A DNA stretch of 64,000 nt from Pseudomonadota bacterium (GTDB lineage Bacteria > Pseudomonadota > Alphaproteobacteria > Rhizobiales > Pleomorphomonadaceae). The stretch lies in assembly GCA_018262505.1 (NCBI GenBank), contig JAGSYV010000008.1, positions 1 to 64,000 on the forward strand, read 5' to 3'. Numbering within the stretch: the stretch's first letter is position 1; the number at the start of each line of letters is the position of its first letter. The notes under the pieces were generated by a model, which searched no databases, was not told the DNA's origin, and saw only the letters and a list, made by a program, of their open reading frames with translations. Positions 43,712 to 49,820 of this stretch are shown here, piece by piece. Made by a program: the position numbers and the translations under genes.

Positions 43712-44650
43712 TCAAGGGGATTTTAGCTGCCATTTCCGACCTTCGCCAAGAAGGGCGTTGGCGAGAACGATGAGTTTGCGCATGATCGCGGTGATGGCGA
43801 TTTTTGCCGGCTTTCCTGCGGCGAGGAACTGATCGTATTTGGCCTTTAGGTCGGGATTGAAGCGGATCGCGACGAGGGCGGGCATGTAGAGAGCTTGGCG
43901 GAGGTTGGCCCGGCCGCCGCGAATGAAGGCGCGGCCGGTCCAACGTCCTGACTGGCGGGCGATCGGCGCGAGGCCGGCCAGACTTGCGGCCTGGCCTGGC
44001 TCCAGACTTCCCAGCTCCGGCATTTCGATCAGCAGGGCGAAGGCGGTGATCTTCGAGATTCCCGGGATGCTGGTTACGATGGCGAACCGCTCGGCGAGGT
44101 CGGCATCGGCTTTGATGATCTGGGTGATTGCCGCCTCGATCGCCACGATCTGGCGCTCGATTTGTTCGAGACGCTGGGTGTTGTGGCGCTTCAGAAGTGA
44201 CATGGTCAGCGCCTTGGCGCGGTTCCTGGCGGCGGTGCGGTCTTTCACCAAGGCTTCGCGAGCAAGGCGAAGCTCCTTAAGTTCGAGCAAAACCTCGCTT
44301 CTGGCCGGACGCGTCTCCAGCTCCAGCACTGCGCCCATGCGCGCCAGCATCGCCGCGTCGAGCCGGTCGGTCTTGGCGAGCTTGCCGGTTGCCTCAGCAA
44401 AGCGGCGCGCTTGCCGCGGATTGACCTTGGCGAAAGGAATGTCGGCAGCACCCAATGCACGCTCCAACGCCCGGTGATAGGGGCCGGTCGGTTCGAAGAC
44501 GACGCGCTCAACAGGCGTCTGCGCCAGCCATTTGATCAGCACCTTGTGGCCGCGTTTGTCGTTGGCGAAGCGCTGGCTTGCGCCGTCGGCCAGCCGGTGA
44601 ACATCGAGATGGTCTTTCGAGACATCGACGCCGATGGTATCATTCTTCAT
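43712..44650 (-). CDS. IS110-family transposase (DEDD), intact
   Basis: TIGVDVSKDHLDVHRLADG, VVFEPTGPYHRALERAL, TDRLDAAMLARMG, IPGISKITAFALLIEMPELGSL, AGLAPIARQSGRW. Confidence 0.93.
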   Translation of the reverse strand: MKNDTIGVDVSKDHLDVHRLADGASQRFANDKRGHKVLIKWLAQTPVERVVFEPTGPYHRALERALGAADIPFAKVNPRQARRFAEATGKLAKTDRLDAAMLARMGAVLELETRPARSEVLLELKELRLAREALVKDRTAARNRAKALTMSLLKRHNTQRLEQIERQIVAIEAAITQIIKADADLAERFAIVTSIPGISKITAFALLIEMPELGSLEPGQAASLAGLAPIARQSGRWTGRAFIRGGRANLRQALYMPALVAIRFNPDLKAKYDQFLAAGKPAKIAITAIMRKLIVLANALLGEGRKWQLKSP

Positions 44651-44855
44651 CTTTTCCGTGCCTCTGCTTGTCATCCGGGGCTCTCCCCCGGGTATCCGTT
44701 CAGGCCAAAGGAAAAGACGAGGGCGATCAAACTCTAAGTCGACCCGTCAAACGGTCCGCGCTTTCACGATCCGTCCCTCGCCGCTGACGAGAGGGCTGCC
44801 ACCCTCTCCCAGCGGTCCTTTTTGCCTCAGCGGCGCAGAAAGTCATAAGACAAGC
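44651..44855 (-). ncRNA. Candidate IS110 bridge/seek RNA region (non-coding 5' region of IS110 copy 1)
   Basis: Non-coding region conserved, inverted, with 44948-45154; contains hairpin CGCTGAC..AGCG at 44782-44814. Confidence 0.4.
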
Positions 44856-44888
44856 GCTGTTCGATCTGATTCAATCAGATCGGCGCTC
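44853..44888. repeat. Palindrome AGCGC tgtt CGATCTGATT-C-AATCAGATCG gc GCGCT
   Basis: 10-bp perfect arms 44862-44882 with one central base, nested in outer AGCGC/GCGCT. Confidence 0.6.
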
Positions 44889-45154
44889 TAAGTTCTTGTT
44901 TGGGAAGCATCATCTTTTCGATCCTCGTTTCACTCCGGTCGAATGATACTTGTCTTATGAGAATCCGTGCCGATCAGGCACAAAGGAACCGCTGAGAGAG
45001 GGTAGCAGCCCTCTCGTCAGCGGCGAGGGACGGATCGTGGATGTGCCAGCCGTTTGACGGGCCGAGCTAGAGTTTGATCGCCCTCGTCTTTTCCATGTGG
45101 CCTGAACGGATACTCGGGGCTTCGACCCGAATGACAAGCAGAGGCACGGAAAAG

Positions 45155-45751
45155 ATGACCAACATTACCATTGGGATCGACATCTCGAAAGCCGAACTAG
45201 ACGCTCATCGCTGGCCCGATGGTGCGACCAGTCGCTTTCCCAACACACCGGTCGGCTTTAAAGCGCTGCTCAGTTGGATCGGCACCGAGGCACCGCGTAT
45301 CGTCTTCGAGCCAACCGGTTCCTACCATCGCGCTCTGGAGCAACGTCTGTCAGAGGCAGGTCTGCCCTTCGTCAAGGTCAATCCCCGTCAGGCCCGGCGC
45401 TTTGCCGAGGCAACCGGTCGGCTTGCTAAGACAGACCGAGCCGATGCGACTCTCCTGGCGCGGATGGGTGCAGTTCTCGACCTGCCGCCCAGGCCAGCCA
45501 GAGACGACAAGCTCAACGACTTGAGAGAGTTGCGGGTCGCGCGCGAAGCTTTGCTCAAGGATAGGACGGCGACGCTGAACCGAAGTAAGCAGCTGATCAT
45601 TGTCCTGCTTAAACGGCAGAACGCCGACCGGCTGGCCGATTACAACACGTCTCGCTCGCATTCCCAGATCGACTGGCGTACGCCGTCCGAGTTTGCGGCT
45701 ACCTTCCAAATCGATCAGCTGAATCGCCTTGTCGAGTTTTCATGGAAATGA
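45155..45751 (+). pseudogene. Truncated IS110-family transposase fused in frame to an IS3-like transposase C-terminal tail
   Basis: N-terminal half MTNITIGIDISKAELDAHRWPDG...LKDRTATLNRSKQ then DYNTSRSHSQIDWRTPSEFAATF, an IS3 OrfB-type terminus. Confidence 0.8.
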
Positions 45752-45786: not shown

Positions 45787-47427
45787 ATGACCCCGTTATT
45801 TTCCCTGAAGCCTCTGGTGCTCTGCACTACTATCCTATTGTTCGGCCTTGGGTCTTCGCAGGCCGAGACTCGGGCCGTCGTTGTCGGCATCGACACGTAC
45901 CAAACCCTTACACCGTTACGAGGGGCCGAAGCGGACGCCCGAGATATCCGCGACACCCTTAAAAAACGCCGCGTTGAAGATCTCACCGTCCTTCTCAATG
46001 ATGAGGCCGACCGCTCCAGCATCCTTGACTCTATTGACGCCGTGATCGACCGCGCCAAGCCCGACGACTTCGTCATCCTCAGTTTCGCCGGTCACGGCGG
46101 TCAACTCAAATGGGGCAAGATCCGCCCGGCCTACGCCAAGGAGGGCGACCACTACGAGGCGTTTCTACTCGGAAGATTCAGCGCACCCGACAGCCAGGGC
46201 AAGCCGTACCCAGACGCATCCACCTCTCCTGCAGAACGCATTGCCGGCGTCGAAATGAACATCCGGTTACGGGAGCTCAATCAGAAGGGAGTGAGGACCA
46301 TCTTCGTCATCGACACATGCTTCGCCGACGGCTTGACGCGAGAACCCTATATAGGCAGCCCCGACACAGCTCGAACGTTCCGCGGGAACATTCCGATAAT
46401 GGAATTCCAAAACGGATTGGACCCACTGGCGGCCAGTCTCGCCGCTCTACCGCAATCTCAGGACCCCGATCAATTTAAGTCGGTGGTTGTTCTTGCCGCG
46501 GAAAGCGACAACAACACGACGCCTGAGGTTGAACTACCTGAAGGGTCGGGAAAAAGGCGGGGTGCCTTGTCCTACACCTTCGCCCGCCTTCTGGATGGTA
46601 GCCAAGACGTAGGCGCAAATGGCATTGTCAATCGCAGCCAGCTCGTCGGTTATATTCGGTCAAAGGTATCAATAAACTCGGAGAACCTGCAGACACCTGA
46701 AACTCATCCCCGCTCGGATCCCAATGCGCTAGCCATCGACTTCGCCAAGGATTTTGGTGCAGTCACGATGGCCAAACCAGATCAGGCCATAGCTGCCGTT
46801 CGGATGTTCATCTCCGGGAGCGGTGAGGCCTTGCCGCCTTCTCCACGCCCCGAAGCATTCAAAATCGTAGGCGCATCAAGTGCCGATTCAGCCGATCTCA
46901 TCTACGAGGGTGAGAAGGGCGAGGTCTATTCAGCGCAGCAGGATCTGGTAGCTACGGATGTCAGTCTGGATGGTCTCAAGGATGTCGCAGCAAGCACCTT
47001 TTCCATCCGTCGGCTCGTTGCGCTCAACCTGGTCCCGCACCCGCTTTCTCTACTCGGAGGCGACAAGCGTTATCGCAACGGTGAACGGCTCGTGATCGAC
47101 GCCCGGCCAGCCGACGATGCCGAGTATTTCGCTCTTTTTGACATCAACGGCAATGGTATCGTTCAGCTTCTCTACCCGCTGGAGGATAGGAAGGATTCCC
47201 TCCTTTTGGACGGGAGTGAGCCTTTCAGGGGTATGAAGATTAGCCCGCCATTCGGTCGCGATACGGTGGTTCTGGTCACGGACAAAAAGCCGCTGACCGA
47301 ACTGATCACCAGCCTCAATACTCTGAATTCAAACGTCGCTCCCCTCGAAGCCGTGGACTTCATCGAGAAATACAAGACCGACAGCATGCGCCTCGGCATT
47401 CAGGCATTCTTTACGGGTACAAATTGA
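45787..47427 (+). CDS. Secreted caspase-family (peptidase C14-like) protein with C-terminal DUF4384-like domain
   Basis: Signal peptide MTPLFSLKPLVLCTTILLFGLGSSQA; His motif FVILSFAGHGGQ; Cys motif TIFVIDTCFADG; C-terminal ADDAEYFALFDINGNGIVQLLYPLEDRKDS. Confidence 0.85.
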   Translation: MTPLFSLKPLVLCTTILLFGLGSSQAETRAVVVGIDTYQTLTPLRGAEADARDIRDTLKKRRVEDLTVLLNDEADRSSILDSIDAVIDRAKPDDFVILSFAGHGGQLKWGKIRPAYAKEGDHYEAFLLGRFSAPDSQGKPYPDASTSPAERIAGVEMNIRLRELNQKGVRTIFVIDTCFADGLTREPYIGSPDTARTFRGNIPIMEFQNGLDPLAASLAALPQSQDPDQFKSVVVLAAESDNNTTPEVELPEGSGKRRGALSYTFARLLDGSQDVGANGIVNRSQLVGYIRSKVSINSENLQTPETHPRSDPNALAIDFAKDFGAVTMAKPDQAIAAVRMFISGSGEALPPSPRPEAFKIVGASSADSADLIYEGEKGEVYSAQQDLVATDVSLDGLKDVAASTFSIRRLVALNLVPHPLSLLGGDKRYRNGERLVIDARPADDAEYFALFDINGNGIVQLLYPLEDRKDSLLLDGSEPFRGMKISPPFGRDTVVLVTDKKPLTELITSLNTLNSNVAPLEAVDFIEKYKTDSMRLGIQAFFTGTN

Positions 47428-47465
47428 GCACTTCATCAAGTTCGATTTTGAAGATCGGATAAATA

Positions 47466-48734
47466 ATGAACAAGATTTACCTACCTGCTTTCGGTCTGGC
47501 ACTTTCCATGATCTTCGTCGCGCCTGCGATTTGCTCTGCTGTCCCCACCGATCCCAAAGCCTGTGATCACGCGATCACTGGCAAGATCGGTTCAGCGCCA
47601 GCAATTGTGGCTCTGGCCAAGGCCGGTTTTGCCCTGGACCTAATCATTCACGCCAAGGCGCAAGCGGGTAACATCTCGGTCTCTCCGTTTGGTCTGGCCT
47701 CCGTCATCGCGGGCCTTGATCTCGGGGCTGATGCGAGAACCAACGCCGCTATCGCAGAATTGCTTCATGTCGGCGCCAAGTCGCGCCTCAGTATCAATAG
47801 CTACCGATACGACAGTCGTCGGCTTTCTCGGGCGGAAGTCACCGCCAGCTCGCCGCTATCTTCAGCCAATGCCTTTTTCTACGACGGTCAGCTCAAGCTA
47901 AACGGAGACATAGCAAGCTCGATTGCCGCCGAAAGCGGGTTTGCCGTATCGGCCGTCGATTTCGCCGATCCAAAGACGATCGACCGGGTCAACAGGTGGG
48001 TGTCAACCGGAACCGGTGGTGCCGTTCCCGAGATCATCGAACCAGGCTTTTCCGCATCGCTTGCCGCGATTAATGCCTTCCACTTCTCGGACTGCTGGAA
48101 ATACCGCTTCGACCCGGACTTCACCAAGGAGCGCGCCTTCCATACACTGGACGGAAGAGACACGCCGGTCGCCACTATGGCACTCGACACAACGACCATC
48201 GGTAACAATGCGCGCCTGGCAGTTCGCCAAAAGGGGCGCTTCATTGCCGTCGAACTACCATATGCTGATCCGCGTTTTGTGCTCGACATGGTGACGACCA
48301 CTGACAAGCCGGCAGAGAGGTCCGAGTTCCGGAGTAGCACCGGATTGTTGGCCGGCATCAAGTTCAAGCCGTCAGACGTTCGCCTTACTCTGCCGGCGTT
48401 TGATGACACCGCAAGTATCGATGCCCTGACCGATTTCGACCTTCCCAAACTCGGGATCATAGTGAATTCGTCAAAAGCCTTCTCTGGGATAGCCGAAGGT
48501 ATCCAGCTTTCTACCATCGTACAGAAGCTGGTGCTCAAAGTTGACGAGCGAGGCACTGAAGCGGCGGCCGCCACTGCGGCAATTGCGGTTCGTGGTGCCC
48601 AAATCCTCAAGCCGGCCAAGACTATTGCGTTCGATAAGCCGTTCATCTTTGCCATCCGGCATAAGGAAACCGGAGCAGTCCTGATCAGCGGCTATGTAGC
48701 CGAACCCCATGTCACGAAAACCGAAGTGCGGTAA
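47466..48734 (+). CDS. Serpin-family serine/cysteine protease inhibitor (secreted)
   Basis: NISVSPFGLASVIAGLDLGADARTNAAIAELL; AINAFHFSDCWKYRFDPDFTKERAFHTLDG; reactive-loop hinge DERGTEAAAATAAIAV; FDKPFIFAIRHKETGAVLISGYVAEP. Confidence 0.9.
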   Translation: MNKIYLPAFGLALSMIFVAPAICSAVPTDPKACDHAITGKIGSAPAIVALAKAGFALDLIIHAKAQAGNISVSPFGLASVIAGLDLGADARTNAAIAELLHVGAKSRLSINSYRYDSRRLSRAEVTASSPLSSANAFFYDGQLKLNGDIASSIAAESGFAVSAVDFADPKTIDRVNRWVSTGTGGAVPEIIEPGFSASLAAINAFHFSDCWKYRFDPDFTKERAFHTLDGRDTPVATMALDTTTIGNNARLAVRQKGRFIAVELPYADPRFVLDMVTTTDKPAERSEFRSSTGLLAGIKFKPSDVRLTLPAFDDTASIDALTDFDLPKLGIIVNSSKAFSGIAEGIQLSTIVQKLVLKVDERGTEAAAATAAIAVRGAQILKPAKTIAFDKPFIFAIRHKETGAVLISGYVAEPHVTKTEVR

Positions 48735-48739
48735 ATGTG

Positions 48740-49363
48740 ATGATTTCCAACGACATTTTCGCTGACAACGCCGCAATCGACGCCGACCTAGACGTCTACG
48801 AGGCCATGCTGTGGTCGCGCTTTCACCTCCTGGAAAGTCTCGTTTCCGAAAGCCGTTCTCGTGAGGAGAACGTGATCGACCTATTGCGCGTCGAGCCCAT
48901 GTATCAATTCGTCGAGTTCTTTTATCTCCTGAAAGCGCGTTCAATCGAAACTGTCGACGACATCAGCCAGTACGTGGAAGCCCACAACTACTACATCGAC
49001 ATGCTGACACGTGACGGTGAGAAAATGAAGCGTATGGGTCTGCGAAAGGATCGCTTGCTCGATGCCATCTTCACGGCTGACACGCTGCCGCGCCTCATCG
49101 AGACTTGGAAGACCCGGCCGGGAGTGATTGAGCAGTCGAATCTCGGCAGATTCCTAGTTGCCCAGATGTCGTCGGAGACATGCCGCAAACTGATCATCGC
49201 CTCAACCGAAGCAGGTTTTCTTGATCGAACCAAGTCGCCCTATGGAGCCATGCTTGTGCGCTCAACCGGCGTGTTCGAAAGGATCTTCGGCAACAACCTG
49301 CGTGAACTCCGCGACCGGATCACCGGGATCGGCGGCAACTCGCCCGCGAGCATAACTCTTTGA
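48740..49363 (+). CDS. Hypothetical protein (208 aa ORF), third gene of caspase-serpin cluster
   Basis: Starts within a few bp of serpin stop; helical-looking, no signal peptide; no family recognised. Confidence 0.65.
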   Translation: MISNDIFADNAAIDADLDVYEAMLWSRFHLLESLVSESRSREENVIDLLRVEPMYQFVEFFYLLKARSIETVDDISQYVEAHNYYIDMLTRDGEKMKRMGLRKDRLLDAIFTADTLPRLIETWKTRPGVIEQSNLGRFLVAQMSSETCRKLIIASTEAGFLDRTKSPYGAMLVRSTGVFERIFGNNLRELRDRITGIGGNSPASITL

Positions 49364-49373
49364 AAGACATTAC

Positions 49374-49820
49374 ATGACTGGCGAAGCCGTTTCCCTGTTC
49401 TCGCCTCAGGTGGCCAACTGGAATACTGCCGATGGCGTCGGCCGCTTCAAGAACTTGCTTGCGGTCATGTTGTTGGCGACGTCTCTGTCGAGTACAATCA
49501 GCAGTTCACCAGCACGAGCTGATCTCGTCTCGGACCACATGCTGCCGCAGTTCTCGCAGGCAGAGCTCCGGATAGTAATGTCGGACGGGCTATTGCGAGC
49601 AGCCTTGTCCGACGCGCCTTGGCTGCTCCTTCGGGCGCTTCAGATTGGGGCCTGTTCGACAACGGGGGGTAACACGAACCAACCCGGAGGCGCTGGTGCG
49701 TGTCCGACAACTCCATCCGCCGCTACCCCTGACGATGAGCCGGAGGAACGCGCCAATCCAGAAGCCGCTTACGACCTGTTCATGTTGCTCAAACGCGTCA
49801 AGGAAACCCAGGCCAGATGA
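49374..49820 (+). CDS. Hypothetical protein (148 aa), fourth gene of cluster, hydrophobic/export-like N-terminal segment
   Basis: 11 bp after previous stop; FKNLLAVMLLATSLSSTISSSPARADLV resembles a signal peptide; no family recognised. Confidence 0.55.
   Translation: MTGEAVSLFSPQVANWNTADGVGRFKNLLAVMLLATSLSSTISSSPARADLVSDHMLPQFSQAELRIVMSDGLLRAALSDAPWLLLRALQIGACSTTGGNTNQPGGAGACPTTPSAATPDDEPEERANPEAAYDLFMLLKRVKETQAR

Follow-up and report, generated by a model that had tools for sequence, protein, structure and literature searches.

On balance, the locus at 45787-49820 of the 64,000-nucleotide stretch of Pleomorphomonadaceae DNA analyzed here (the window) appears to be a copy, truncated by insertion sequences (IS), of a conserved alphaproteobacterial periplasmic protease module in which a serpin would restrain the module's own Arg/Lys proteases, ancestrally a trypsin. 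A larger claim, which we put forward more tentatively, is that alphaproteobacteria run an endogenous periplasmic cascade of an orthocaspase and a trypsin zymogen, both activated by cleavage after Arg, with a dedicated serpin setting the threshold, and that the window may carry a version reduced to the orthocaspase and the serpin.

The locus comprises four ORFs, all on the plus strand, at 45787-47427, 47466-48734, 48737-49363, and 49374-49820. The initial annotation had described four same-strand ORFs separated by roughly 39, 5, and 11 bp; the arrangement stands, but these distances were slightly too large, the gaps being 38, 2, and 10 bp. Gene 1 has an alternative ATG upstream at 45742. The assembly is 90% complete in 257 contigs, of which the window is contig 218. 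GC content is 0.55-0.60 in genes 1-4 against 0.61-0.66 in the adjacent genes, and both gene 3 and the serpin are absent from all 13 congeneric genomes searched, which is consistent with an accessory origin. Taken with the IS110- and IS3-type pieces lying upstream, these features bear out the earlier proposal that the cluster follows IS remnants and is accessory. The signal peptides of genes 1, 2, and 4 were called from sequence and hydropathy, not from SignalP, and scans for promoters and terminators returned fewer sites than in shuffled sequence.

Gene 1 (45787-47427, plus strand) encodes a secreted orthocaspase (Pfam Peptidase_C14, E = 8e-13), classified as such by a p20-type C14 domain with the catalytic His-Cys dyad, His103 in SFAGHGG (46093-46095) and Cys178 in IDTCFADG (46318-46320). 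The signal peptide, both caspase motifs, and the DUF4384-like C-terminus had thus been read correctly from the letters, the DUF4384 match being weak (E = 2e-4, under the curated Pfam cutoff). An Asp lies two residues ahead of the Cys, forming a DxC motif; orthocaspases as a class cleave after Arg or Lys, and the position of this Asp fits that class (PMC6426788). In the tree, gene 1 is sister to the caspase of the G260 cassette with support of 100/99. We rejected an origin of gene 1 as a trypsin-caspase fusion that had shed its trypsin domain, since the tree places it with the separate caspases.

Upstream, an ORF at 45074-45706 (plus strand) joins the N-terminus of an IS110 transposase (Pfam DEDD_Tnp_IS110, 2e-23) to a piece of IS3-type integrase (rve_3, 0.0047, under the cutoff). 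In frame with this remnant are the last 14 codons and the stop of a lost OmpA-domain gene, the presumptive scaffold, at 45707-45751 (plus strand; tblastn and profile). Its sequence, QIDQLNRLVEFSWK, is identical at 12 of 14 positions to QQIDDLNRRVEFSWK, the C-terminus of the OmpA protein that precedes the serpin in G260 (L036; tblastn E = 8e-4), both finish at a stop codon, and the remnant is the top window match of an OmpA C-terminal profile (E = 0.012). The match is short, and position and reading frame count for as much as the score does. Since an OmpA gene before the caspase is the usual order elsewhere, the most likely history is an IS event in which everything except the end of this gene was replaced, the 14 codons being what remains of the OmpA-domain gene upstream of the window caspase. 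At 43712-45706, an IS110 transposase ORF of intact length on the minus strand faces the IS110 remnant on the plus strand, and two arms at 44710-44822 and 44982-45094 are 88% complementary, forming a large potential hairpin.

The second missing part is a trypsin. The 90% complete assembly yielded no cassette-type trypsin, whether between the window caspase and serpin or anywhere else, and a search of the same genome with trypsin profile A4 gave no match at 1e-30, the matches being of HtrA type only. We considered these trypsin-like genes as the missing partner and rejected them, as they are HtrA-type and do not carry the CQGDSGG/Asp189 motif. On contig 89 of the same genome, two trypsin-like ORFs (L054, L055), each about 470 aa long, lie side by side; they are not of the cassette type. 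Damage on this scale could mean that the locus is an unexpressed relic here, its promoter and scaffold gene removed by the IS event. The end of the IS-fused ORF about 35 bp ahead of the gene 1 start, the reduction of the OmpA gene to 14 codons, and the missing trypsin all speak for such a state, but all four ORFs are complete and free of internal stops, and the catalytic and loop residues are conserved. We regard a relic as possible though doubtful, and it would be compatible with the explanation proposed above.

That proposal draws on the recurrence of the cassette elsewhere. A serpin-bearing cassette is found in at least 7 alphaproteobacterial families (f1, f23, f27, f30, f44, f199, and f201), usually in the order OmpA protein, caspase, trypsin, serpin, and frequently together with gene 3, gene 4, and a membrane kinase. 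This order occurs in Rhizobium and relatives (L007, L037, L038), in G002 and G155, and outside the taxonomic order in G922, G820, and G1008. The serpin and orthocaspase of the window group with cassette members in trees. The trypsin is the gene immediately before the serpin in six families, and a lone caspase directly before a serpin was seen in the window only. The initial annotation, which proposed a caspase-serpin module and a neighborhood search for caspase-serpin adjacency, was therefore right about a secreted protease-inhibitor module and about recurrent co-occurrence, but not about the conserved pair; the trypsin was invisible to it because the gene is missing from the window copy.

On plasmid p42e of R. 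etli CFN 42 (146565-162960), a caspase with Sel1 repeats, an S74-like protein, a divergent gene, a gene 3 homolog, and a small secreted protein are followed by a DUF4384-OmpA protein, a caspase, a trypsin-caspase-DUF4384 protein, the serpin, and a Ser/Thr kinase with a weak FGE-like domain. Gene 3 and the serpin, each searched against plasmid records, retrieved largely identical Rhizobium plasmids. The serpin of G387, from the same order as the window, is almost the same as the R. etli one, so the window probably belongs to the order of Rhizobium. In three loci, WD40 proteins of very large size, some of them with C14 domains, adjoin the module (L036:9717-16358, L039:3-3098, L042:10616-18083). 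Adjoining gene 3 in Rhizobium is a divergent 534-aa protein (L007:4568-6169) whose C-terminus looks NlpC/P60-like by eye (DCSGF) and which in Pfam gives weak NHL-type matches only.

Among 398 genomes of the order, the serpin is present in 16, gene 3 in 12, and both in 9 (hypergeometric 4e-12, without phylogenetic correction). A class-wide search found serpins in 9 of 385 genomes and added four more genomes and two further families with the OmpA-C14-trypsin-serpin cassette. Serpin, trypsin, and C14 share one locus in 12 of the 23 other serpin-bearing genomes, a count that leaves out the window genome and is based on a locus comparison outside which the two loci of G973 fall. Taken by itself among loci selected by gene 3, the trypsin-serpin association does not reach significance (Fisher p = 0.15, few loci). 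About half of the examined serpin loci have no nearby protease cassette, and the characterized bacterial serpins target host proteases (PMC8233489), so the serpin might protect the cell from foreign proteases of hosts, predators, or competitors, with its protease neighbors incidental. We think this rather improbable given that tight linkage to both trypsin and caspase is repeated in seven families, in some with possible stop/start overlaps. Evidence against a serpin that restrains its own module comes from within the family of the window: the G001 locus (L008, 2023-17209) holds the whole module, trypsin and kinase included, but no serpin. The window copy, which has lost the proposed main target, also counts against our favored explanation.

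The cassette trypsin frequently carries a fused caspase-like domain and DUF4384. In most loci the distance from its stop to the serpin start is between −4 and about 20 bp; three genomes have a candidate serpin start that would make the two genes overlap by 4 bp. His57, Asp102, Ser195, and Asp189 are kept in all ten aligned representative trypsin domains, each of which starts after an Arg, as expected of a trypsin-type zymogen activated at an Arg site. In the order, the top nine trypsin matches (E ≤ 1e-89) are without exception cassette genes, and eight of them share their locus with a serpin. Counting against our favored explanation, numerous broadly similar trypsins occur in serpin-free genomes. 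In the Rhizobium trypsin protein, Gln or Arg replaces the catalytic His of the caspase-like domain. The reverse is seen in the family represented by L076, L077, and L078, where the trypsin-fused C14 domain keeps its dyad and the C14 protein adjoining OmpA (L076:5294-6823, L077:4511-6064, L078:5592-7121) has no recognizable one.

Serpins are suicide inhibitors of proteases. Gene 2 (47466-48734, plus strand) encodes a secreted serpin whose domain is complete, as the initial annotation had it, covering Pfam profile positions 4-370 of 370 (E = 2e-51), and its closest solved structures are PAI-1 and protease nexin. The hinge, ERGTEAAAAT, is of the inhibitory type, with small residues at P15-P9 and a plausible P1 (GTEAAAAT...AVR-GA). 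From alignment with PAI-1 and protease nexin, the presumed P1 is Arg376 (48591-48593, plus strand), the 14th residue from the hinge Gly. An Arg stands at this 14th position in 13 of 14 cassette-linked serpins and at the 15th in the remaining one, followed by a small residue; if this Arg is P1, the loop would be one residue shorter than in antithrombin-type serpins. We rejected the idea that the Arg is peculiar to cassette serpins, because several serpins without an adjoining trypsin (L045, L049, L073) also carry Arg at the presumed scissile position, and it therefore counts as compatible evidence and not as a cassette signature. In the tree, gene 2 clades with serpins of three cassettes (G260, G087, G122) and one lone serpin (G318) with support of 99/97; a search for close relatives in a genome contig collection gave a single distant Bacteroidota match.

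An Arg at the scissile position would fit inhibition of a trypsin or of an Arg-cleaving orthocaspase, not of an Asp-cleaving, animal-type caspase. This leaves the question of which protease is the target. If the orthocaspase is the direct and ancestral one, then the trypsin is merely a neighbor. Every examined trypsin-serpin locus has at least one C14 domain or gene, the window has retained its serpin beside the caspase although no trypsin was found, an Arg loop suits the DxC motif and the preference of orthocaspases for Arg/Lys (PMC6426788), and inhibition of plant and algal metacaspases by serpins has been reported (PMC10609998; PMC10896300). In the window itself, a dedicated caspase inhibitor gains weight because the orthocaspase is the only protease left in the locus. 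Against this stand the position of the trypsin directly before the serpin in six families, the restriction of the simple caspase-serpin pair to the window, and two loci (G024, G743) that have C14 and OmpA genes but neither trypsin nor serpin. An ancestral orthocaspase target thus seems unlikely to us, and we continue to favor an ancestral trypsin.

With the trypsin as ancestral target, we infer a module in the periplasm whose OmpA/DUF4384 protein probably tethers the protease set to peptidoglycan. The trypsin zymogen would be activated by a cut after Arg, made by the orthocaspase or by trypsin itself, and the serpin would trap the active Arg/Lys protease, keeping the response limited; the cassette is often accompanied by a Ser/Thr kinase of the membrane that carries an FGE-like domain. 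Judged by their residues, Asp189 trypsins with an Arg activation site, Arg-loop serpins, and Arg/Lys-class orthocaspases fit one another. With the OmpA gene and the trypsin gone here, a serpin still active against a product of its own locus would have only the orthocaspase to act on. The response served may be defense, envelope stress, or programmed lysis, all of which are candidates. The initial annotation had inferred a toxin-antidote-like, cell-death, or interbacterial module. A secreted protease adjoining an inhibitor in a cluster of accessory origin would suit a toxin-antidote or interbacterial weapon, the secreted caspase being the toxin and the serpin the immunity. Such a weapon found no support and is very improbable, as no delivery gene or toxin family was recognized in the cassette, and the peptidoglycan-binding OmpA domains and the membrane kinase speak for a system resident in the envelope.

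The remaining two genes match no family in Pfam, NCBIfam, or PADLOC, as had been anticipated. Gene 3 (48737-49363, plus strand) encodes 208 aa with no signal peptide seen, and its family resides mostly in module-type loci: homologs occur in 12 of the 398 genomes of the order, and 10 of these 12, the window counted, adjoin module genes. Comparison with PDB, Pfam, and NCBIfam gave chance-level matches only, including a faint HTH_20 in one member (E = 0.1), no relatives were found in the viral contigs searched, and a structure predicted without an alignment reached a pLDDT of 44. Perhaps, and this is a guess, gene 3 is a cytoplasmic accessory protein or regulator. Gene 4 (49374-49820, plus strand) is one of several small secreted proteins that share a conserved C-terminus (DLxxLLKxA) and usually adjoin gene 3, as seen from profile matches and from alignment with nine proteins that neighbor gene 3 elsewhere.

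A broad survey of serpins describes their role as enigmatic in many prokaryotes and has it that prokaryotes lack complex proteolytic signaling pathways (PMC8233489). Gene order that links a serpin with an endogenous trypsin zymogen and an orthocaspase in several families offers a testable system for this role, and Rhizobium strains amenable to genetics have the cassette intact. It also gives bacterial orthocaspases a candidate physiological substrate and a candidate inhibitor. These bacteria may have a serpin-controlled protease pathway of their own, and, if this is true, it would be a bacterial counterpart of the animal cascades. In animal serpin-controlled serine protease cascades, such as coagulation and Toll, a trypsin-type zymogen with an Arg activation site is paired with an Arg-P1 serpin. 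The zymogen Arg site and the Arg at the presumed P1 are shared with the module described here, which differs in being bacterial and in including an orthocaspase and an OmpA protein, and whose cascade is a proposal.

Among microbial systems, the alphaproteobacterial QC pseudo-orthocaspases, with an N-terminal trypsin domain and DUF4384, have the same domain order as the Rhizobium protein that precedes the serpin (trypsin, C14 with Gln for His, DUF4384), but they were described as single proteins with no mention of serpins (PMC6426788), and the window copy has no such protein. The characterized bacterial serpins (miropin, siropins, Bifidobacterium serpin, thermopin) share the family and the inhibitory hinge; their known physiological targets are host proteases (PMC8233489), whereas genetic linkage here ties the serpin to the cell's own trypsin and orthocaspase. 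In AtSerpin1 with metacaspase 9 and in the Chlamydomonas serpin-metacaspase system, a serpin acts on an Arg-cleaving caspase homolog (PMC10609998, PMC10896300), as it may here, but these systems are eukaryotic, and no cassette joins them to a trypsin zymogen gene. NTP-dependent conflict systems also combine trypsin and caspase peptidases, some with peptidoglycan-binding domains, in conflict-type loci (Kaur et al. 2020, PMC7159879); MoxR, STAND, and GTPase components were not recognized in the cassette, however, and serpins go unmentioned in that paper. Our searches of the open-licence literature turned up no description of a serpin within a cassette of this kind; the parts are known, and their combination seems to be new.
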